A stretch of DNA of 64,000 nt from Thalassomonas actiniarum (GTDB lineage Bacteria > Pseudomonadota > Gammaproteobacteria > Enterobacterales > Alteromonadaceae): the NCBI RefSeq assembly GCF_000948975.2, contig NZ_CP059735.1, forward strand, positions 1,178,001-1,242,000, read 5' to 3'. Positions 43,349 through 55,471 of the stretch are shown in pieces. The notes beneath the pieces were generated by a model. The model did not search any database. It saw only the letters and a list, made by a program, of their open reading frames with translations, and was not told the origin of the DNA. A program made the position numbers and the translations under genes. Every line of letters begins with the position of its first letter. The first letter of the stretch is position 1.

Positions 43349-44521
43349 GTGATTGATAAAAGCAAAAGTAACTGGCTAAACGCTTCACCTTTGATCATTT
43401 CTGTACTGGCTGTTGGTGTTATATTATTCAATGATCTTTCCTTGTTCTCCTGGCTTGGTATTGGCGTTTTATTGGTTTTGGGCATAATCTCCAGCCTGCA
43501 ATTGCATAATAGCTGCAAGCTTGCCTGGCAAAGTAGCCAAAAGCAGGAAGAACAAGCACAAACCCGGAAAGAAAAACAAGCCTATCAATATTTAAATCAA
43601 GCCATTTGCACCCTGATGCCGATATGGTCCCGGCAAATCAGCCATTCCAGAGATATTAGCGGCGATGCCATTACCCAATTAAGCCGGAAATTTACCGACA
43701 TAGTTAACCGTTTAACGGCAACCATAGACACGACACATCAAATGAATGCCGAGGGGGAGCAAGGGGCTTTTGGTTACATTAAAAACAGCAATAAGGAGCT
43801 GGATATTAGCCTGGATACCCTGGCGGAAGCTTTTGCCAGCCAGGAGCTGGCGCTGAAGGAAATGAATGTTTTGGTTGATTTAACCGAGGAGCTTAAAGCC
43901 ATGGCGGTTGAGGTTTCCGGTATCGCAGAGCAAACCAATATGCTGGCGCTTAATGCCGCCATAGAAGCTGCCCGGGCAGGAGATAGCGGTCGGGGGTTCG
44001 CTGTGGTTGCCGATGAAGTGCGTAACTTGTCTATCCGTTCATCACAAACCGGTAGCAGTATGTCGCAGAAAGTAGACGATATCAATGCCGCCATGGACTC
44101 GGCGTTAACTACAGTAAAAAGCGGAGCGAATACAGCAGCAAGCCTCCTGGAGAATAGCCGGGAGAAGATAGGCAAAGTGATCTCGGACTTTGAGCTTATT
44201 ACCGGAAAAATGTCAGAGTCCAGTAAAGTCATCCAGCATGATAATACTGAGTTGCTAAAAGATGTTTCTGATGTCCTGGTGTCGCTGCAATTCCAGGACA
44301 GGGTCAGCCAGATGCTAACGCATATCAGTGATTTCATGGGCAAGGTTGAGCAGGAGTTGCCCGGTTACCATGCAGGCTTATTTGATGGCGGCATTATTGA
44401 AAAATGGCTGGCAGAAAGTGAAGCCACTTACACTATGGTTGAGCAAAAACAGCTTCACCATAATAGCGCACCGGAGCAAGCTAAATCTTCCGGTAATAAC
44501 GATGAAGTCGAGTTCTTTTAA
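43349..44521 (+). CDS. Methyl-accepting chemotaxis protein with minimal membrane anchor
   Basis: A 390-aa MCP opening the chemosensory operon, starting at GTG. Residues about 12-52 form two closely spaced membrane helices with almost no periplasmic loop, so there is no classical sensor domain. A helical linker follows. The signalling tip is [35 protein letters not shown]. The C-terminal part ([19 protein letters not shown]) resembles the short MCPs that sense membrane or cytoplasmic state. No CheR-binding pentapeptide is seen at the end. It lies 11 bases upstream of cheY. Confidence 0.9.
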
Positions 44522-44532
44522 CGGGGAATATT

Positions 44533-44898
44533 ATGGCGAAAACTATTCTTATTGTGGATGATTCGGCGTCACTTCGCCAGATCATAAAAATCACCCTAAC
44601 GGGAGCCGGTTATCAGGTGATTGAAGGAGAAAATGGCCAGGACGCGCTGGATAAGCTGGCGGGACAAAAAATCAATCTGGTGGTCAGTGATGTCAATATG
44701 CCGGTAATGGATGGCATTACCTTTGTGACGGAATTGAAAAAATTACCTTTGTATAAATTTACGCCGGTGATCATGCTGACAACAGAGTCCGAGCAGGAAA
44801 TAAAAGAGGCAGGCAAAGCGGCCGGGGTCAGGGCATGGATGGTCAAACCTTTTAAACCGGCGCAAATGCTCACTGCCGTGCAAAAGCTTATTATGTGA
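44533..44898 (+). CDS. CheY-like single-domain response regulator
   Basis: A 121-aa receiver alone: acid pair IVDDSAS, phospho-Asp53 in LVVSDVNMPVMDG, Thr in IMLTTESE, Lys in WMVKPFKP. There is no output domain, so it acts through protein binding, as CheY does. It lies between an MCP and the STAS/cheA genes and is the expected phosphate acceptor of this CheA. Whether it binds the flagellar switch or serves another output is open. Confidence 0.94.
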   Translation: MAKTILIVDDSASLRQIIKITLTGAGYQVIEGENGQDALDKLAGQKINLVVSDVNMPVMDGITFVTELKKLPLYKFTPVIMLTTESEQEIKEAGKAAGVRAWMVKPFKPAQMLTAVQKLIM

Positions 44899-44908
44899 GT
44901 TGCTCAGG

Positions 44909-45211
44909 ATGTTGACGGTTTTAACATCACAGGAGAAAAAGGAAGTTGTGTTTGAGGGTGACATGACCATTTATGAAGCGGCATTGTTATATCAGGAAAT
45001 AAGCGAAAAACTCACTTTTGATGCCGATATTGCGGTGAATTTAACTCAGGTGGGAGAGATCGACACTTCGGGTATTCAGCTTATTTTGCAGCTGTATTTT
45101 CTTGCCCAAGGCCATAATTTCACTTTGAGCCATATTGTCCACGGTGATGCCAGTGCTCAGGCATTTGAGTTGTTACAACTCGATGTTGACCGTTTTAACC
45201 AATATCTTTGA
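44909..45211 (+). CDS. STAS-domain protein in the chemosensory operon
   Basis: A 100-aa STAS (anti-anti-sigma-like) protein. VVFEGDMTIYEAALLYQEI is the first strand-helix unit and VNLTQVGEIDTSGIQLILQLY the loop that, in SpoIIAA-type proteins, bears the phosphorylated Ser; here D-T-S-G keeps that Ser. The start is uncertain: ATG at 44909 has no ribosome site, TTG at 44900 is another option. It sits between cheY and cheA in one unit. Its role is unknown, possibly an adaptor or a phosphate-independent regulator of the CheA pathway. The family is clear, the function is not. Confidence 0.87.
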   Translation: MLTVLTSQEKKEVVFEGDMTIYEAALLYQEISEKLTFDADIAVNLTQVGEIDTSGIQLILQLYFLAQGHNFTLSHIVHGDASAQAFELLQLDVDRFNQYL

Positions 45212-45226
45212 CGATAAGGTTTAACC

Positions 45227-47446
45227 ATGGATTTAGATCCGGTAATACAAACATTTCTTATTGAAGCGAAAGAGCAGCTGGAAGAGATGGAAGAAAAGCT
45301 ATTATCGCTGGAACAAGATCCCGGGGATACTGAAGCGGTAAATGCGGTTTTTCGCGCCGCCCATACCATTAAAGGCAGCGGCGGTATGTTTGGTTTCGAG
45401 CACCTGGTTGCCTTTACCCATGAGGTTGAATCTGTCTTGATGCGCATGCGCAAAGGGGAGCTGGCAATCGATCAGGGACTGATCTCGGTATTGCTCAGCT
45501 GTAGTGATCATATCAGGCTGTTGGTGGATTGTACCGGTGCTGACGGTGAAAATATTTCCGGGGAAACCGGGCAGGCGAGCCAGAAGTTGGTGAACAAACT
45601 TTTCCCTTATGGCGGTAAAGCCGGACAAGAGCATGAACACAGTGGGAAAACATCGCCGGGGCCGGGTGATATAGGTTCGGTAGATAATAATAAGCCGGGT
45701 TTGGAGAGGGCGGAGTCGGGGACGGTTTCTGATAACTGGCATATCTCACTGAGGTTTAATGCCCAGGTATTAAAAAATGGCATGGATCCGCTGTCGTTTA
45801 TTCGTTTTCTCGCTACTGTCGGAGATATTAAATCGGTACATACTTTGGTTGATAACCTGCTCGCTGCCGGTGAAGCATTCGATCCCGAAAACTGTTATCT
45901 CGGTTTTGAGGTGCAGTTATATTCCCGGGCGGAAAGAAAAGATATCGAAGAAGTATTTGAGTTTGTCCGTGATGACTGCACTCTGACTATTATTGCCCCC
46001 CATAGCAAGACCGAAGAATATATAACCTTGATTAACTCCCTGGCAGATGACGATGCCAAGCTGGGGCAGATTTTATTGCAGGTAGGGGCACTGACGCCGA
46101 AAGAGCTGGAAAGTATTTTACAAACGCAGATGGCCATGCCGGCGGAAGAAGAGCCTGTAAAAGTCGGCGAACTGATCCCCGCTCAAGGGGTGGATAAACA
46201 AGTCGTGGATACTGCCCTGAACAAGCAAAAACAGTCCCGGGAGCGACAGGCAAAAAGCAAAGCAAATGAAAGTACCAGCATGCGTATAGATGCCGAAAAG
46301 CTCGACAGTCTGATCAATCTGGTGGGGGAGTTGGTGATTGCCCAGGCAAACAGTGCTTTGTTAGCCAAACAGAGTCGTATCAGTAACTTAATTGATGCCA
46401 TGGCATCTACTTCGAGCCTGATTGAAAGTATACGGGATAATTGCCTGAAGCTGCGTATGGTACCTATAGGACAAACGTTTTCACGTTTTCAGCGTGTGGT
46501 CCGGGATATTAGCCTGGAGCTGGATAAGGACATACGTTTGACCACTTCCGGGGAAGATACCGAGCTTGATAAAAGCATGGTGGAAAAGTTGGTGGATCCC
46601 CTGATGCATTTAGTGAGGAATTCTATGGATCACGGCATTGAAAATGCCGAGCAAAGGCTTGCGGCCGGCAAACCCGAATACGGACAACTTGCCCTGAGGG
46701 CCTATCATGATTCCGGCAACATAGTGATTGAAGTCAGTGATGACGGTCAGGGGATCACAAAAAAGAAAGTGATTAAAAAAGCGATAGAAAATAGCCTGAT
46801 AACAAGCGCTGAAGGCATGGCGGATTATGATATTTACCGTTTGATTTTCGAACCCGGGTTTTCTACCGCCGAAACAATCAGCAACATCTCCGGGCGCGGC
46901 GTTGGTATGGATGTTGTTAAACAAAACATTGAACAGCTTAAGGGCACTATTGAAATTGATTCCCGCCCCGGACAGGGATTGACCATGCGTATCAGGGTGC
47001 CGCTAACCTTAGCGATAATCGATGGTTTTTTGCTGGAAATCAGCAATAGTCAGTACGTACTGCCGTTAAACAGTGTGATTGAGTGCCTGGAACTGTCCGA
47101 GTCGAGCGATATTAAAACAATCAACCGTAATTTGATCAACTTGCGTGGCGAGGTTTTGCCTATTGTCCGTTTACGGGAGTTATTTGCCTGCCAGGACCGG
47201 CCGCCGCCCAGACAAAATATTATCGTGGTGCGTTATGGCAACCGCAAAGGCGGCGTGTTGATTGACCGCTCCCTTGGTGAATATCAAACCGTGATCAAAC
47301 CTCTGTCCAATATTTTTAAGCGCTTAGACTGGCTCGCCGGTTCAACTATCCTGGGCAGTGGCGAGGTTGCGATGATCCTTGATGTTGCAGGTTTATTTAA
47401 AAATGCCGACTTGCAGGCGAGCGGTAAAAATCCAGGCCTGTATTAG
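45227..47446 (+). CDS. cheA: Chemotaxis histidine kinase CheA with an inserted MshEN-like motif pair
   Basis: A 739-aa CheA. P1 (about 1-105) has phospho-His46 in [18 protein letters not shown] linker leads to residues 170-270, a W-x-I-x-x-x-F domain ([21 protein letters not shown]) in the place of P2. Residues 278-301 ([12 protein letters not shown]...ESILQTQ) and 312-334 ([12 protein letters not shown]...TALNKQ) repeat the L-G-x-x-L-x(3)-G-x(6)-L-x-x-x-L-x-x-Q pattern of MshEN domains, which bind c-di-GMP. P3 dimerisation ([20 protein letters not shown]), P4 ATPase ([27 protein letters not shown]) and P5 CheW-like domain follow. It is preceded by the STAS gene and followed by an MCP. Kinase function is clear; c-di-GMP binding is a guess. 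Confidence 0.95.
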
Positions 47447-47481
47447 TTTTAGACACAGCTATATGTTTGTGGAGAGCACTT

Positions 47482-49818
47482 ATGAAAATGTCACTTCATC
47501 TGAAATTAGGTAATAAGGTGACCCTCGCTTTTGTTATTGTGACGCTGATCACTATTATTTTTACTGCTATCCTCAGTTATAACGCCGCCCATGATGCCTT
47601 GGTTTCCAGTGCCTTTTCCCGGCTGACATCGGTCAGGGAAATTCAGAAATCCCGGATTGAAGATTATTTTAAAAAGATCCGGGCTCAAATTATTACTTAT
47701 TCCGAAGACCGTATGATAGTGGATGCTATGAAAGCCTTTAAAAAAGACTTTAATAGCATAGAAAAAGAGCTGGCCTTTAGTAATAAAGCCCTTGCAAGCC
47801 TGGATAGTAAATTGCGCGCCGAATATAGCAATGAATTTTTAAAGCGGTTAAATAACAATCTGGATACTAAGGTCGAGCTCAATCAATACCTGCCACAAAA
47901 CAGTACTACCAGGTTGCTGCAACATTTATATATTGTTGAAAACCCGGAGGCAACCGGGGATAAACATAACCTGGATGTCGCCCCGGATGGCAGCAACTAC
48001 AGTAAAACTCATGCCAGCTACCATCCGGTCATACATAATTTTCTGAAGCAGTTCGGCTATCACGACATTTTCCTGGTGGATAATAAAACCGGCGATATCG
48101 TTTATTCCGTATATAAAGAGATGGATTACGCGACTTCATTGTTAACCGGCCCCTATAAGGACAGCAATATCGCGGAGGTTTTTCGCAGTACCCGGGCCTC
48201 TGCTGCGGCTGATGACATCAAGATTGTTGATTTTAAACCTTATATTCCGACATTTAATGCCCCCGCTTCTTTTATTGCTTCACCTATTTTTGATGGAAAT
48301 GAGCAGATTGGCGTGCTTATTTTTGAGATGCCGGTAGATCGTATCAATAATATCATGACAAATAATAACCGCTGGCTAGAGGCCGGTTTTGGTGAGTCGG
48401 GAGAAACTTATCTGGTCGGGGAAGATCTGACCCTGCGTAACCAGACCCGTTTTTTAATTGAAGATAAAAGCGCATACATCGAAGTGCTCAGGGATTCTGG
48501 CATGGATAACAAACTTGTTGATAAAATTAATAAGATTAGCAGTGCTATCGGTCTGCAATCGATAAAAAGCAAAGGGGTCAAAGCGGCCCAGCAAGGGGAA
48601 AGCGGAGAGGATATTTTTAATGATTACCGTAATGTCTCTGTGCTGTCGGCCTATGCGCCACTCGATATTATCGGGGTGAATTGGGTTATTTTAAATGAAA
48701 TTGATGAAAGTGAAGCCCTGGCGCCTGCTTACGAGCTGAGAAATACAATTTTAATGTCGGCTTTGTTTTTACTGCTGATTGCCACCATCATTGCCTTGTG
48801 GTTTTCCCGCACCATTATCATCCGGCCCATTAATGCCATGTTAACGGCCGCAGAAGACTTACGTTCCGGTGAAGGGGATTTGACTGCCAGGATCCCCAAC
48901 TTTGGAGAGGATGAACTGGGACAAACGGCCCGATCATTGAATGGCTTTCTGGAAAAGTTGCATGATGTTATTTATGAAATACGCGATTCTATCCAAGTGC
49001 TGACGGTTGCGTCGACGGAAGTCAAAACCACGGCGCATTCGGTTAGTGACGGGGCTTCCCAGCAGGCCAGCAGTGTGGAAGAGACCAGCGCCGCCCTGGA
49101 GCAGATGACGGCATCGATAGGTCAAAATGCGGAAAGCTCTAAAATTACCGATAATATTGCTTCCAAGGCCGCCACCGATGCCCGCGGGGGCGGTAAAGCG
49201 GTGGAGCAAACTGTGTCTGCGATGCAAGAAATTGTCGAGAAAATCAGTATTATCGATGATATTGCCTATAAGACTAATTTGTTATCGTTAAATGCTGCCA
49301 TTGAAGCGGCACGTGCCGGCGAGCATGGTAAGGGTTTTGCTGTCGTTGCGGCCGAGGTGAGTAAACTGGCGGAGCGCAGTCAGATTGCCGCCAAAGAAAT
49401 CGGTGAACTGGCGAAAAAAAGCACGGCAACGGCGGAAGGTGCAGGGGAGTTACTTGATGCCATAGTACCGGGCATAGAACAAACCGCCGATCTGGTGCAG
49501 GAAATTGCCAATGCTTCCGACGAACAGGCCGGAGGGGTCAGTCAGATCAGTGAGGCGATGAATCTGGTGGATCAAACCACGCAAAAAAATGCTGCAGCCG
49601 CCGAAGAATTGGCTGCCACTTCAGAAGAAATGAGTAACCGTATTATCCAGGTCAGCCGTTTAGTCTCTTATTTTAAAGTCAGTGAACAGGGAGCTTCTTC
49701 TGCTCCGTCTACTCCCCTTGAAAGTGCGGCCAACCCTATGGCTGGGGAGGGCAGCAAAGGTGTGGCGGGAGTCCCGCAGCCTAAAATCAATAAACAAGAC
49801 TTTGAACCTTTTGAATAA
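47482..49818 (+). CDS. Methyl-accepting chemotaxis protein with large periplasmic domain
   Basis: A 778-aa MCP (start at 47482 with GGAG 8 bases before). The first membrane helix is about residues 11-31 ([19 protein letters not shown]). A periplasmic domain of about 390 residues follows, with features of a Cache-type sensor ([23 protein letters not shown], then [18 protein letters not shown]). The second helix is near 425-445 ([19 protein letters not shown]), then HAMP ([13 protein letters not shown]) and the signalling domain with tip [30 protein letters not shown]. It is inside the che operon between cheA and cheW. The ligand is unknown. Confidence 0.93.
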
Positions 49819-49829
49819 GGAATAAACCT

Positions 49830-50402
49830 ATGTCTGAGCATGAAAGTCATCAAAGGGAAGAAGCGGTTGTCAGCTGCGATCAGTTTCTTACTTTTTCCCT
49901 GGGAGATGATGAATATGGATTGGATATACTCTCCATCAAAGAAATTATTGAATATGTTGAGTTGACCAGGATCCCCCTGATGCCTGACTTTATTCGCGGT
50001 GTGCTTAATTTGCGTGGTCTGGTGGTGCCTATTATTGATTTACTAGCCAGGTTTGGCAATGAACCGGCACAAACAAGCCGACGTTCCTGTTTTGTTATCG
50101 TTGAATTGGCAACGGATGAGGGGCCGTTAGAAGTAGGCATGCTGGTAGACGGTGTCAATGACGTGGTTGAAATCAGCAGCGACAATATCGAGCCGCCACC
50201 TTCATTTGGCAATCAGATACGGGCCGATTTTATTTTTGGCATGGGAAAAATAGCCGGGCATTTTATTGTCTTACTTCAAATAAATAAGGTGCTATCCATA
50301 GATGAGCTCTCGATGTTGAGCGAGATAAACCAGAGCGTTGATCAAGCCTGTAAAGCCAGCCAGAGCGAGCTGGCGCAGCAACAAGATCATGAAAAAGAAT
50401 GA
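49830..50402 (+). CDS. cheW: Chemotaxis coupling protein CheW
   Basis: A 190-aa CheW, linking CheA to receptors. It shows LTFSLGDDEYGLDILSIKEII, TRIPLMPDFIRGVLNLRGLVVPIIDLLARFG and VGMLVDGVNDVVEISSDNIEPPP, all typical of the two SH3-like subdomains. It has a C-terminal extension of about 25 residues. It follows the MCP by 11 bases and is directly upstream of cheR. Confidence 0.96.
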   Translation: MSEHESHQREEAVVSCDQFLTFSLGDDEYGLDILSIKEIIEYVELTRIPLMPDFIRGVLNLRGLVVPIIDLLARFGNEPAQTSRRSCFVIVELATDEGPLEVGMLVDGVNDVVEISSDNIEPPPSFGNQIRADFIFGMGKIAGHFIVLLQINKVLSIDELSMLSEINQSVDQACKASQSELAQQQDHEKE

Positions 50403-50403
50403 T

Positions 50404-51216
50404 ATGCTTGATACCAATCAACTTACCTTAAGCAAGCAGGTATTCGAGCAATTTAAAAGCCTGATGTTTAAAGAATCCGGGGTGACGCTTGGCGAGGAAA
50501 AGCAAGCCATGGTTAAAGCAAGGTTGGCGAAACGTTTACGGCAATTGCAGCTGAGCAGCTTTGAACAATACTTGCAACTGGTGAAATCACCGGATAACCG
50601 TCAGGAAATACAGCATTTAATTGATGCTCTTACCACCAATGAAACCAGTTTTTTCAGGGAAGCGCAGCATTTTGAGTTTTTGAGTCGTCAGCTGGCATCG
50701 TTTTCCGTCACCGTACCGATCAGGATCTGGAGTGCCGCCTGCTCTACCGGTGAAGAAGCTTACAGCCTGGCGATGACGGTTGCCGAAAACCGTTGCCATC
50801 CCGATTGGCAAATATTGGCAAGTGACATCAATACCCAGGTTTTGGCCAGTGCCGGACTAGGTATGTATGATATATCCCGGGCGTGCTCTATCCCCCGCCG
50901 TTATTTGATCAAGTATTGCCTTAAAGGAGTACGCAGCCAGGCCGGGCAATTGTTGTTCAGTGAGCCGTTAAAGCAACATATACGTTTTGTTTTATTGAAT
51001 TTAGACGGTGAACTGCCGGAAATCGGCCGGTTCCATTTTATTTTTCTGCGCAATGTTTTAATTTATTTTAATGAAATCAAGAGAAAACAAATCATCAACA
51101 AAATGATCGGTAAGTTAGTACCGGGAGGTTATTTATTTATCGGCCATTCGGAAAGCCTCAGGGGGATGACGGATCTTTTACGGCCGGTACAGGCGACTAT
51201 TTATCAAAAATGCTGA
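50404..51216 (+). CDS. cheR: Chemotaxis protein methyltransferase CheR
   Basis: CheR methylates glutamates in receptors using S-adenosylmethionine. It is about 270 aa. The N-terminal helical domain (LSKQVFEQFKSLMFKESGVTL) comes first, then NETSFFREAQHFEFL, the SAM-binding IRIWSAACSTGEEAYSLAM, ILASDINTQVL, and FHFIFLRNVLIYF. The start is either ATG at 50404 or at 50389; neither has a strong ribosome site, and coupling to cheW is likely. It overlaps cheD by 7 bases. Confidence 0.96.
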   Translation: MLDTNQLTLSKQVFEQFKSLMFKESGVTLGEEKQAMVKARLAKRLRQLQLSSFEQYLQLVKSPDNRQEIQHLIDALTTNETSFFREAQHFEFLSRQLASFSVTVPIRIWSAACSTGEEAYSLAMTVAENRCHPDWQILASDINTQVLASAGLGMYDISRACSIPRRYLIKYCLKGVRSQAGQLLFSEPLKQHIRFVLLNLDGELPEIGRFHFIFLRNVLIYFNEIKRKQIINKMIGKLVPGGYLFIGHSESLRGMTDLLRPVQATIYQKC

Positions 51217-51734
51217 TTATGCTTTATCTCGATAATAAAGTGGTGCTCTTACCCGGTGACTTTTATTTTGGCAAACAAGAAGCATATCAATATATACAAA
51301 CCTTGCTTGGCAGTTGTGTCGCGTTAACTTTCTGGCATCCGGTGAAGAAAATCGGCGGTATGTGCCACTTTGTGATCCCAAGGGATGTTAGCCGGGAGCA
51401 GCAGGGGACAGCAAAGGGAGCTTTATTAAACGGGCGTTACGGTGACCAGGCAATCAAACTGTTTCAGCAGCATATGGCCCTTGAGCAAAGTGATATACAA
51501 GAATACCGGTTGGGGCTGTACGGAGGCATGCAGGCACTACAGGTGGCTGATGAAGGAGCAATGGGCCGGATCGGAAAAATGAACCTGGATTTTGCCCTGA
51601 CGCAGATACGGGAGAATAACTGGTTGATTGCCCACAGTTATACCTCAGGCAAGGGAGCTTTAAAAATTTTGATGGATCTGGCCGATGGCAGAGTAGAGGT
51701 TTCGACGGTGGCAGAGCTCAAGGGCCTGACTTAA
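51210..51734 (+). CDS. cheD: Chemoreceptor glutamine deamidase CheD
   Basis: CheD converts receptor glutamines to glutamates. It is 174 aa with the catalytic Cys36 in TLLGSCVALTFW and His53 in GGMCHFVIPRD, the usual pair. ATG at 51210 overlaps cheR; a second ATG at 51219 is possible. Its place between cheR and cheB is the common order. Confidence 0.95.
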   Translation: MLIMLYLDNKVVLLPGDFYFGKQEAYQYIQTLLGSCVALTFWHPVKKIGGMCHFVIPRDVSREQQGTAKGALLNGRYGDQAIKLFQQHMALEQSDIQEYRLGLYGGMQALQVADEGAMGRIGKMNLDFALTQIRENNWLIAHSYTSGKGALKILMDLADGRVEVSTVAELKGLT

Positions 51735-51866
51735 AGCGGATATTGATCAGCAGCTTGAATCTGGTTGTGTGACAGGCAGACAAGTGGAGTTAACGTCCGG
51801 GGGGAGCAAGAAGTAATATGCCGGTTGATGTCAGTGGTGTTAATAAGGGGGATAAACGAGGTAAAA

Positions 51867-52949
51867 GTGTCAAAAATTAAGGTATTAATCGTTGATGATT
51901 CGGCAACGGTGAGAACGGTGATCGCCAATATTTTATCCCGGGATAATGACATCGAAATCCTGGGGGCGGCGGCGAACCCGGTTTTTGCCCAAAGAAAAAT
52001 GGAAAAAGTCTGGCCCGATGTCATTATTCTAGATCTTGAAATGCCGAAAATGGATGGCTTAACGTTTTTAAAACATATCATGTCTACCCGGCCAACCCCG
52101 GTGATTATTTGCTCCGCACATGTGGAATCGGGGGCCGGGGATGCCATCAAGGCTTTGTCCTTAGGGGCGGTGGAAGTTATCAGTAAACCCGCCTTGGGAA
52201 TACAAGCCTTTTTAACCGAAAATGCCCGGGGCTTTATCCACTCGGTTAAAGCGGCTGCTTGCGCCAGTACCACTAAATTAACAGCCAGTGTTGCCGCCGC
52301 CGGTGAGCAAGAAGCGTTAAAAAAACAAGATGCCGAGGTTATTTTGCCTTTATCTAAACCGCAGGAGAAAAAGCTTGTCTGCTCGGGGACTAAAATCGTA
52401 GCCATTGGCAGCTCAACCGGCGGTACCATAGCGATCGAAAGTGTGCTCGCCCGGTTAAGCGATAATATTCCGCCACTGCTTATTGTTCAGCACATGCCGG
52501 GGAAATTTACCCGGGCTTTTGCCAATCGGTTAAATAATATTTGCCGGTTAACCATTAAAGAAGCGGAAGACGGAGATCGACTAAATGCGGGGTGTGTCTA
52601 CATCTCTCCAGGAGATCGGCATATGCTTTTGAAATATAAGGATAACCGATATTATATTCAGTTAAAGGACGGCCCTTTGGTCAGCCGCCATAAGCCATCG
52701 GTCGATGTATTATTTCGCTCGGTAGCTTCTTGTGCCGGGAAAAATGCCCTGGGAATTATTCTTACCGGAATGGGTAACGACGGCGCACAAGGTATGCTGG
52801 AAATGCGCAAGGCCGGAGCCTTGACCTTGGCCCAGGATGAAGCCAGCAGCATCATTTTTGGTATGCCAAAAGCAGCGCTGAAAAACGGCGGCGCGATGCG
52901 TGCCGTGAGTTTAGCCGATATTCCCGGTACCATTTGTCAATTTAAATAA
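51867..52949 (+). CDS. cheB: Chemotaxis response regulator protein-glutamate methylesterase CheB
   Basis: CheB removes receptor methyl groups when phosphorylated by CheA. I place the start at GTG 51867 (SKIKVLIVDDSATVR), with GAGG 6 bases before; the frame extends upstream to 51765 but those residues do not fit the family. It is 360 aa. Receiver: phospho-Asp56 in VIILDLEMPKMDG. Esterase: Ser in AIGSSTGGT, His in LIVQHMPGKFTRAFANRL, Asp in ILTGMGNDGAQGMLEM. It is the last gene of the operon. Confidence 0.96.
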   Translation: MSKIKVLIVDDSATVRTVIANILSRDNDIEILGAAANPVFAQRKMEKVWPDVIILDLEMPKMDGLTFLKHIMSTRPTPVIICSAHVESGAGDAIKALSLGAVEVISKPALGIQAFLTENARGFIHSVKAAACASTTKLTASVAAAGEQEALKKQDAEVILPLSKPQEKKLVCSGTKIVAIGSSTGGTIAIESVLARLSDNIPPLLIVQHMPGKFTRAFANRLNNICRLTIKEAEDGDRLNAGCVYISPGDRHMLLKYKDNRYYIQLKDGPLVSRHKPSVDVLFRSVASCAGKNALGIILTGMGNDGAQGMLEMRKAGALTLAQDEASSIIFGMPKAALKNGGAMRAVSLADIPGTICQFK

Positions 52950-52997: not shown

Positions 52998-54716
52998 TTA
53001 AACCTTAAACTGGCTCACCAATTGTTCCAGTTGCCGGGATAATCGCAGCAGATTTTCCCCGCATTTTACCGTGGCTTTTACCGCTTCCGTGGTGGTGGTG
53101 GAGGTATCGCTGATATCCACCACATTCTGGTTGATCTCATCGGCGACCACGCGCTGTTGCTCCGCTGAGGTGGCGATAATGTTGTTCAAATCGTTGATCT
53201 CCCCTACCTGGTGGGCAATTTGCTGCAGGGAGCTTTCGGCATTTTCAGCCTGGTTGGCGACACTTTTGACCTCTTCATTGCCTTTGCCCATTAAGTTAAC
53301 GGCCTGGGCGGTACGGGCCTGAAGGCTGGAGATCATAGTATCAATTTCTTCCGTCGACTCCTGGGTTCTTTGCGCCAGGGTTCTGACTTCATCGGCGACC
53401 ACGGCAAATCCCCGTCCTGCTTCACCGGCCCGGGCGGCCTCAATGGCGGCATTTAATGCCAGCAGGTTGGTTTGTTCGGAAATACCACGGATCACATCTA
53501 ATACCCCGCCGATTTCCTTGCTGTATTTCTCCACCAGGGTGATGGAGTCATTGGTATCATTAAATAACGTGGCTAAACCTTGCGTCGCGGCCACAGAGTT
53601 TTGTACCACTTCACGGCTTTCTTCGGCGGTGAGTTTGGCTGAAGCGGTAGATTTGCTGGCGGTTTCGGTATGTCCGGCCACTTCCTGCACCGTCGTCGCC
53701 ATCTGGTTGATTGCTGCGGCGACCTGGTCGGTGGCTCTTTCCTGGGAGACCACGCCTTCCTGGGTTTCCTGCATTAAATCAACCAGGTAGTTGGTGGCAT
53801 TTTCCATTTCATCACAGGCGGTTTTCACCTGTAAGATGATATCGGAAAACTGCGTCATCATTTCATTAAATGAACTGCCGGTGACCCCTATTTCATCCAT
53901 GCTGACGATTTTAAACCTTTCCCTGAGATCTGAGTTCAGCTGGATCCGCTCTACTGTCGTGCGTAACCTCTGGATGGGATTACAGATCTCCCGCCTCAAC
54001 ACGACACTAAAGGCGATACTGAGCAGGGTCGATAATACCAGGATCACTATGGTGATATCCCACATGCTGGTATTTTCCGAAACTATGCTATCAGACGCCA
54101 GTTTGACCTTATTGGCGGAGTCGGCAACAGACTGGCCCGCCAGGGTGACCTGCTGGTTGGCCCTACTCAAAGTTTCATCAATATTGGCGGTAAATTCCCG
54201 GATAAGGTAATCGACTTCTGAGGCGATAAGGCGGGCGTCAGCCGTTAACGAATTACCTTTTACCCGGTTTTCATCAACATAGGCATCAACGGCATCGAGC
54301 ATGGTTTGATAAAATAGCTCGGACTTTTCTTTGATTGTCTGGCTAAGGTTTTGGTCTATGCCGGTGAGTTTTTCTAACTGGTTGTTGAGTTTTTGCTGGG
54401 AGAGCTCGGCATTTTCTTCTGCTTCATTTAACCAGCTGACGGTCAGATCTAACAGCCAGACCCGCATATCGGTAAAATGGCGGTCTACGGCAAGAATGAC
54501 CATTTGTTCATTGACTGCCCGGCGCTGGTTTTGCAGTTGGTTGCCCTGGTTGGTGACCGCTGTTATTTGCTGGCTCACTAATCCCTGTTGCTCCTCTATG
54601 ATGCCTGAGGTTGAATTGACAGTGATCAGGATATAAACAAAAGCTATGGTCACCAGAGCCGAAAAACCGCCACTGGAAAGATTGAGTTTAGTGGCGATAG
54701 TCATGTACTTAAACAT
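52998..54716 (-). CDS. Methyl-accepting chemotaxis protein paired with the haem protein gene
   Basis: A 572-aa MCP. The first membrane helix is residues about 14-34 ([18 protein letters not shown]). The periplasmic part of about 180 residues looks entirely helical and is rich in Gln, Asn and Glu, without a haem motif or Cache pattern. The second helix is near 220-240 ([19 protein letters not shown]), followed by HAMP ([13 protein letters not shown]) and the tip [37 protein letters not shown]. It begins 20 bases after the stop of the haem protein gene and converges on cheB. No C-terminal pentapeptide is seen. Confidence 0.92.
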
Positions 54717-54736
54717 TTGAGCTCTCCGTTAATCCG

Positions 54737-55471
54737 TTAATGGAAAATGGTCAGACTAATGGCTCCGCCCAATTCATTTAATACCCCGCCTTCTTTTTTA
54801 CCGCCGGTAATATCCCGCTCTCCTTTGGGGCTGCCGTGACAACCCAGGCAGGAAGGTCCGTAATATTCGGGTAAAATAAAACGGAAGGCGCTTTTGCCTT
54901 TCACCTTAGTATCTTCATAAAATGATTTGCCCTTTTCATAATCCGGATTTTTAAAAACGGTTTCTACAACATTATGTTCCCACTTGTCCGGGCGGTTAGC
55001 CCGGTTTCTGACATATTTTTTCGGGGCGGTGAGCTTAATGTTCATTTTACCTTTCATGTCCAGGCTAAACGCCGTGGCGACCTGGCGGGCAAAAATGGCG
55101 GGTAGGAAGCCTTTTAATCCCGTGCCTTTTTCATTGATCAAATCCTGATTATCATCCATCACTTTTTTCACGGCATTAAGCATTGCCGCCTGTGCCTGGC
55201 TCATCTTGGCTTTACTGATGGTTTTTCCGGTTGCCGCCTGATAATTTTCCAGGGTTTTGGCCGCCACGACTTCTCCGGATAAACCTTTATCACCGATGGC
55301 GGCATTGTTGATATGTCCCTGGTTATCGGAAATTACCTTCCTGGCAGCCCGGTAGAGGGTGGTCAGTTCTTCACTTATTTCGACATTGGTGGCGGCATAG
55401 AGCGGTCCGGGGGTAACAAAGATTAACAGGGGGAGGCATAGCAGGATCCTGGCAATAAGGGCATTCATCAT
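54737..55471 (-). CDS. Periplasmic c-type haem protein, DUF3365 (Tll0287-like)
   Basis: A 244-aa exported protein (signal peptide LIARILLCLPLLIFVTPGPLYA). A single CXXCH haem site lies at residues 208-212 (SCLGCHGSPKGE), in the C-terminal context EYYGPSCLGCHGSP typical of DUF3365 proteins, which adopt a PAS-like fold. Phrases such as KGFLPAIFARQVATAFS and KYVRNRANRPDKWE are family hallmarks. It lies directly upstream of an MCP gene with 20 bases between. In other organisms DUF3365 domains are fused to kinases or MCPs; here the haem unit is separate. A redox, NO or oxygen sensing role is inferred. Confidence 0.85.
   Translation of the reverse strand: MMNALIARILLCLPLLIFVTPGPLYAATNVEISEELTTLYRAARKVISDNQGHINNAAIGDKGLSGEVVAAKTLENYQAATGKTISKAKMSQAQAAMLNAVKKVMDDNQDLINEKGTGLKGFLPAIFARQVATAFSLDMKGKMNIKLTAPKKYVRNRANRPDKWEHNVVETVFKNPDYEKGKSFYEDTKVKGKSAFRFILPEYYGPSCLGCHGSPKGERDITGGKKEGGVLNELGGAISLTIFH

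Follow-up and report, generated by a model that had tools for sequence, protein, structure and literature searches.

A periplasmic haem c protein gene paired with a chemoreceptor gene in Thalassomonas actiniarum and other bacteria: a candidate receptor in two pieces

In the window analysed here (a stretch of 64,000 nucleotides of Thalassomonas actiniarum, positions 1,178,001 to 1,242,000 of contig NZ_CP059735.1), a gene for a free periplasmic haem c protein is followed by a gene for a chemoreceptor (MCP), and the locus raises the question of whether the two proteins act together. An earlier note, made from the sequence alone, had proposed a two-part chemoreceptor; the split-off haem unit gains comparative support below, whereas the accompanying claims that such haem domains are usually fused, that the MCP lacks a pattern of its own and that the che operon has a role do not stand. 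Our reading, to which we give a probability of about 0.7, is that the haem protein and the MCP form one receptor in two pieces, in which a change in the haem pocket would be signalled through docking at the tip of the MCP.

The two genes and their predicted proteins

An open reading frame check bore out the coordinates and the 20-base spacing of the two genes, and the haem protein ends at its own stop codon, unfused. Promoter-like and terminator-like sites scored no better than chance. The features of the locus are as follows.

54737..55471, minus strand: haem c protein gene, an open reading frame of 244 amino acids, assigned from a PF11845 profile match, relatives and predicted structure
52998..54716, minus strand: MCP gene, an open reading frame of 572 amino acids, assigned from a Pfam search and predicted structure; layout TM1, four-helix periplasmic domain, TM2, HAMP (240-289) and MCPsignal (356-537)
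54717..54736, minus strand: 20-base spacer with a Shine-Dalgarno-like GGAGA ahead of the MCP start
55394..55471, minus strand: signal peptide, about residues 1-26 of the haem protein, judged by eye and from the N-termini of relatives
55226..55375, minus strand: copy 1 of the helix pair, N-terminal, residues 33-82 of the haem protein, from the internal duplication
55052..55201, minus strand: copy 2 of the helix pair, residues 91-140, where the PF11845 match starts, from the duplication and Pfam
55091..55105, minus strand: LPAIF pocket signature, residues 123-127 of the haem protein, from the alignment and its conserved columns
54836..54850, minus strand: CXXCH haem c attachment site CLGCH, residues 208-212, CXXCH being kept in 47 of 47 rows of the haem protein alignment
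54408..54488, minus strand: tip motif 1, MCP residues 77-103, where helix 1 ends and helix 2 starts; consensus FxxxRYWLxDLxVSWLNESExNAE
54231..54311, minus strand: tip motif 2, MCP residues 136-162, where helix 3 ends and helix 4 starts; consensus [21 protein letters not shown]

The haem protein matches the Tll0287-like family PF11845 (formerly DUF3365; E 5e-16, with a score of 59.8 bits, the cut-off being 24.1). The description of it as secreted with a single CXXCH agrees with the CLGCH site and with a hydrophobic N-terminus that by eye resembles a signal peptide; the mature protein has no Cys except those of CXXCH. Its alignment comprises the window protein and 46 relatives (after manual removal of seven fragmentary or overlong sequences; L084 and L087 contributed no row). 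The predicted single-chain structure has a pLDDT of 92, and Foldseek lists GSU0935 (3b42) and Cache domains among its matches, but at E 0.08 and above. None of the PDB sequence searches that started from the haem protein, from its profile or from a fused relative led to a related structure; a search started from a Cys-type relative did reach Tll0287. In the N-terminal part, hhalign aligns one helix pair with the next (probability 95.7, E 9e-9 for a single comparison), which marks a duplication, and this duplication is probably not special to the pair, because stand-alone PF11845 groups without MCP neighbours also match almost the full alignment profile. Met105, which is Met in 42 of 47 rows, is put forward as a candidate weak distal ligand as a guess, because the axial Met position of GSU0935 could not be mapped.

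We compared the haem pocket across 33 PF11845 genes (L001-L033). At the pocket column, PAT[FM] occurs in all 12 fused relatives and Cys in 15 of the 18 other stand-alone relatives; the aligned axial-Cys column holds Pro in the window protein versus Cys in L005-L017, L019 and L020; the three stand-alone relatives without this Cys bear a lipoprotein-like Cys near the N-terminus, and three of the 33 genes fall in the window group, with the signature LPA[IV]F. As judged by alignment, the window pocket thus carries the PAxF signature of the fused, sensor-type relatives. The portions considered of a preprint on this family (Deshpande et al., 2026, PMC12889525) split it into fused, NO-sensor-like and stand-alone, redox-like members, nearly half of the family being stand-alone; there, a fused-type member without Cys released its bound NO slowly and gave no stable complex with O2, and a stand-alone member with Cys did not bind NO strongly. 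The window protein resembles this sCache_heme family in its PF11845 match, CXXCH and apparent export, and its lack of an axial Cys is shared with the fused NO-binding member and sets it apart from Cluster 1, the stand-alone redox type; being stand-alone, it is not assigned to Cluster 2. It differs from the published division, as far as those portions give it, in being stand-alone yet having a sensor-type pocket and an adjoining receptor gene, and they describe no such pairing. The earlier note had named redox state, NO or O2 as the signal: since the pocket has no axial Cys and bears the PAxF signature, as in the fused sensor-type relatives, NO or redox appears likelier than O2, which is disfavoured by analogy with the members characterised in the same portions.

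The expectation that DUF3365 domains are usually fused is contradicted by our count, in which 29 of 63 PF11845 places in 98 genomes, the window's own and relatives, lie in stand-alone-sized open frames (fewer than 300 residues, as against more than 400), close to the preprint's share. In a quick tree of 51 haem domains, with 10 of 48 inner branches well supported, the Cys type (eight rows) forms one well supported group, and the fused and lipoprotein types fall together, separate from it. The window group clusters but needs two changes, three sequences of a second Nitrospinota group falling inside it.

One alternative is that the two proteins are functional partners without contact: the haem protein would handle redox or NO in the periplasm, the MCP would sense a product or a ligand of its own, and the operon would be shared for the same conditions. 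A stand-alone Pseudomonas putida relative with redox-like properties, reported in the portions of PMC12889525 considered, fits this alternative, but the sensor-type pocket signature without axial Cys speaks against it.

The MCP itself is well identified by Pfam (MCPsignal E 2e-41, HAMP E 1.5e-7). Its periplasmic domain had been described as all helical, and an AlphaFold2 model agrees (pLDDT 92, pTM 0.68), predicting helices at 3-90, 93-114, 118-143 and 147-240 in a four-helix fold. No Pfam family reaches its cut-off in this domain (TarH comes to E 0.015 and 15.7 bits, where 25.2 is required); the domain shares with TarH/4HB_MCP a predicted four-helix periplasmic fold between two TM helices, and differs in that score and in the tip motif and variable stalk length that mark the window group. 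The earlier note had seen no ligand-binding pattern in this domain; the alignment of the receptor head (the window and 37 relatives, L075 being left out) does show a conserved pattern, with 16 columns at least 90% conserved, nine of them invariant, all inside two tip segments. Mean conservation is 0.67 and 0.72 in these 27-residue segments, 0.30 in both stalks and 0.35-0.43 in the remaining segments. In the model, the two segments correspond to the turns between helices 1 and 2 and between helices 3 and 4, which meet at the membrane-distal end. The stalk is shortened in many members by matched gaps in the first and last helix, the pattern to be expected if a coiled stalk carries the head.

A protein partner is not the only possible reason for a conserved tip: the distal part of E. 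coli Tar also binds small ligands. The tip motif could be the small-molecule site of a new four-helix family, with the haem protein delivering, making or removing the ligand, and two observations are in keeping with this: five of the nine invariant residues at the distal four-helix end are charged, and the PcaY_PP chemoreceptor domain is among the fold matches listed. Foldseek with the periplasmic model returned nothing at E<=0.001, long helices matching many things; LytSN of the XylFII-LytSN crystal complex ranked second (E 0.005, 2.0 A over 120 columns), and its TM-score on target of 0.82 is the highest among the 50 fold matches listed. XylFII docks on the four-helix domain of LytS, where, in the parts considered of PMC9769921, it contacts helices 3 and 4, unlike the contact at the tip that we propose for the window pair.

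Conservation of the pairing

Starting from the haem genes, with one genome per species, we obtained 55 loci, labelled in their records as Gammaproteobacteria, Alphaproteobacteria, Nitrospinota, Verrucomicrobia, Planctomycetota and others; many are contigs of metagenome-assembled genomes (MAGs), and L050 and L051 come from one MAG. A gene with the tip domain lies within 5 kb in 41 of the 55, on the same strand in all, a count that is not independent because the head alignment was built from neighbours of haem genes, which makes the receptor-side test fairer. In 37 of the 41 the two genes are at most 250 bases apart (the match in L049 is a fragment, E 1e-5). Gene order varies, with the receptor downstream, upstream or 1-3.5 kb off with intervening genes.

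In the other 14 loci, no tip-domain gene lies as close as 5 kb to the haem gene. Five of them, the close relatives L039, L069, L072, L073 and L074, have none detected in their genomes (the contig of L039 ends downstream of the haem gene in an apparent transposase start); the genome of L043 has four tip-domain receptors elsewhere; and the remaining eight (L078-L081 and L083-L086) are divergent or partial. The genome-wide search for the tip domain took in 49 of the 55 loci and gave a match in the genomes of 36. The haem gene is thus the looser partner of the two.

Two side observations concern these haem genes. A PF13372 alginate-export-like gene lies beside the haem gene in three loci (L048:5841-7031, L059:5818-7023, L210:5573-6937), and stop codons interrupt the haem genes of L062, L199 and L200, all Nitrospinota MAGs, through decay or assembly error.

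Counting from the receptor, a search with the head profile (E<=1e-8) found it in five of 398 Pseudomonadota genomes, with the haem gene directly upstream in all five: the gap is 20 bases in the window's own genome and 73 bases in L210, and the genes overlap by four bases in L211, L212 and L213. Within the family of the window, eight of 246 genomes have the head and all eight the haem gene at E<1e-100, one further genome (G503) having such a haem gene without the head (Fisher p 3e-14). Among 77 Nitrospinota genomes, chosen because the haem scan had matched there, 12 hold both, one the receptor only (the match sits 171 bases from a contig start), four the haem gene only (G586, G590, G591 and G613, E<1e-90) and 60 neither (p 6e-10). 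Both p-values are overstated because related genomes are not independent, and the two haem cut-offs were chosen after a gap in the scores had been noticed; at E 1e-10 the haem profile matches 15 of the 246 family genomes and 27 of the 77 Nitrospinota, seven and 15 of them without the receptor, most of these weaker matches falling in other stand-alone groups. In the class survey (274 genomes), the head occurs, apart from the window's own genome, in G160 (E 2e-12), a genome 85% complete with no haem gene at E<=1e-10; G133 has a weak receptor match (6e-5), and five genomes have weak haem matches only.

Across these four overlapping surveys, the receptor domain passes E<=1e-8 in 26 genomes, 24 of which contain a haem gene of the window group too, and the co-occurrence proposed as a test of the pair is borne out from this side. 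In 21 of the 24 it lies within 250 bases of the receptor, in G031 and G384 some 1.1-1.2 kb away with an ATPase-like gene between, and in G639 on another contig. Six of the tip-domain receptors examined have no adjoining haem gene (L125, L126, whose gene is cut by a contig end, and L202-L205), and their genomes hold one elsewhere. On whether homologues regularly occur apart, the answer therefore differs by side: receptors are mostly paired, and the 14 unpaired loci are on the haem side.

The co-occurrence bears on the alternatives unequally. A small-molecule site at the tip would by itself leave it unexplained, and we consider that alternative improbable. Functional partnership without contact could draw on the haem genes and tip-domain receptors that are located apart, and on a mirror-tree test in which the distance matrices give the periplasmic domains no advantage (haem-sensor 0.40 versus haem-signalling 0.48; the window and 26 loci, 11 loci being dropped because the hairpin did not fit the pattern, L062 left out by hand and L087 having no haem row); it has against it that an MCP lies within about 1.5 kb of none of the 15 Cys-type stand-alone genes. 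Passive linkage, in which the genes travel together by horizontal transfer with unrelated functions, could explain the short branches that span phyla in the haem tree, but the pair persists though gene order varies, and the four-base overlaps at three loci suggest translational coupling; we regard it as highly improbable. The reading as one receptor in two pieces accommodates the pairing, and that the pair is one functional sensor we consider probable.

In two cases (L042/L130 and L044/L129) the protein encoded between receptor and haem genes is a HATPase_c-only protein, of 372 amino acids in L130 and 406 in L129.

Outputs and genomic context

In the haem-side loci, every partner open to assessment matches the signalling part of MCPs; L049, L052 and L057 are cut by contig ends, the MCP match of L082 is weak (E 7e-4), and that of L058 lies in the next frame. 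The cytoplasmic halves of these MCPs are not alike: some contain several HAMP domains, and one has six HAMP_2 stretches. In three of the five Pseudomonadota genomes with the receptor head (L211-L213), the tip-domain partner is not an MCP but a hybrid kinase of the layout HAMP-PAS_7-HisKA-HATPase-REC-REC, with a single-receiver protein encoded next. In these loci the haem protein is 41-45% identical to that of the window, and the tip 35-39%. As judged from these sequences, the pairing follows the periplasmic halves and not the output, because the same head pairs with the haem gene whether the output is an MCP or a hybrid kinase. This is not what co-regulation by itself would predict, and we judge functional partnership without contact to be unlikely. 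The swap of outputs, seen at three loci, is the strongest comparative argument for what would be a joint input module. Behind the kinase, L211 (4280-6198) and L212 (4545-6500) encode the single-receiver protein and also a protein with HisKA, a receiver and an adenylate/guanylate cyclase domain, neighbours that suggest a cyclic-nucleotide output.

The MCP gene converges with cheB (51765-52949, plus strand), and this much of the supposed link with a che operon holds. The operon as part of the system was rejected: close che homologues stand beside the pair in only one of the 55 loci, the closest one (L034, haem protein 96% identical), where homologues of the window's CheB, CheD, CheR and CheW adjoin it. 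More distant che genes occur near the pair in L066 and L085, and only CheY-like receiver domains in L039, L043, L053 and L068. The che cluster of the window (43349-52949) encodes a STAS protein, two MCPs, CheY and CheA and, by eye, CheW, CheR, CheD and CheB. By analogy with the Che1 locus of Shewanella oneidensis, which it resembles and which the parts considered of PMC9855816 link to RpoS control, it may not serve swimming.

MCPsignal matches 46 times in the window's own genome; as two matches share one frame, this makes 45 MCP places, one with an internal stop. A single one of the 45 carries the tip domain, and it adjoins the genome's one haem gene of the window group. Three genes in this genome are fused PF11845 genes, two of them MCPs by position, so fused and split haem sensors coexist there.

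Other stand-alone groups served as controls. None of the three lipoprotein-type genes has an MCP-like gene within about 1.5 kb. In windows of about 6-11 kb, one was found for one of the seven members of a haem group preceding a substrate-binding-like gene, about 2.9 kb off, and for none of two others or of the seven in the second Nitrospinota group. In L132-L138 another stand-alone PF11845 gene is followed by one for a protein of 243-256 amino acids, which in L134 resembles a periplasmic substrate-binding protein by eye; four of these neighbours, when tested, gave no Pfam match at E 0.01. In L142 (5383-7759) the gene of a divergent stand-alone haem protein (CVACH, no other mature Cys) ends 40 bases before an MCP gene whose sensor part is a different helical-looking one, with no tip motif, from the sequence possibly a second, separate haem-MCP pairing.

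At three Nitrospinota loci that were examined with Pfam, a fused PF11845 MCP lies upstream of the stand-alone haem gene in the same direction (L064:2095-4575, L186:4577-7327, L189:6510-8918). This arrangement supports a haem-sensing context, and the stand-alone protein of these loci might serve the fused MCP instead.

Proposed mechanism and meaning

The mechanism that we propose would begin with export of the haem protein and covalent attachment of haem by the cell's cytochrome c maturation system; PF01578 (cytochrome c assembly) has three matches in the genome. His212 of CXXCH would be the proximal ligand, and the distal site, without an axial Cys, would probably be open or weakly liganded. 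Binding of NO, or oxidation or reduction, would alter the pocket; the haem protein, docked on the membrane-distal tip of the four-helix domain, would pass the change down the long stalk helices through HAMP to the kinase-control hairpin. In this scheme we infer that docking takes place, where it does so, what the signal is and which way it runs. That the haem protein docks directly at the tip seems likely; by analogy with characterised relatives, an NO-like gas ligand stands at somewhat below even odds, and a redox signal is the more doubtful of the two. By further analogy, and as speculation, the spare N-terminal helix pair could pack on the receptor.

The analogy is with the Geobacter haem c MCPs GSU0582 and GSU0935, in which, in the parts considered of PMC8396549 and PMC3460858, a haem c Cache/PAS-like sensor with an N-terminal helix pair feeds an MCP and the two helices swap between chains. 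There the haem domain and the MCP are one chain, whereas the window has two proteins, and in the window haem protein the helix pair is duplicated internally. The known two-part receptors MBP-Tar, XylFII-LytS, TorT-TorS and LuxP-LuxQ, as presented in the parts considered of PMC6321045, join a soluble periplasmic protein to a membrane receptor, as proposed here. The window group shares with such systems a conserved pairing of partner and receptor genes; their partner is of the substrate-binding-protein (SBP) kind, and that of the window group has no SBP fold but is a haem c protein of PF11845, putatively of Cache type. In the open-access literature searched, we found no description of the pairing presented here.

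Known periplasmic haem c sensors, in the published parts considered, are built into the receptor chain and known two-part receptors use SBP-kind proteins, so a haem protein signalling in trans would, if our reading is true, join both designs, and it would be an exception to the division that assigns stand-alone members redox roles in the portions of PMC12889525 considered. The short conserved tip motif flags candidate haem-reporting receptors in genomes, and the pair is a clean test system, its soluble part being removable or mutable with the receptor left intact. More tentatively, as a possibility that we do not rate as probable, a free periplasmic haem c protein and a helical docking head may make up a portable haem receptor in two pieces, with the helix pair handed to the tip. 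If so, a periplasmic gas or redox signal would reach any output bearing the head, from MCPs in several phyla to the hybrid histidine kinase that some Pseudomonadota encode close to a receiver-cyclase gene, and the duplicated helix pair, whose counterpart is swapped between chains in the Geobacter haem MCPs, would go to the receptor tip.
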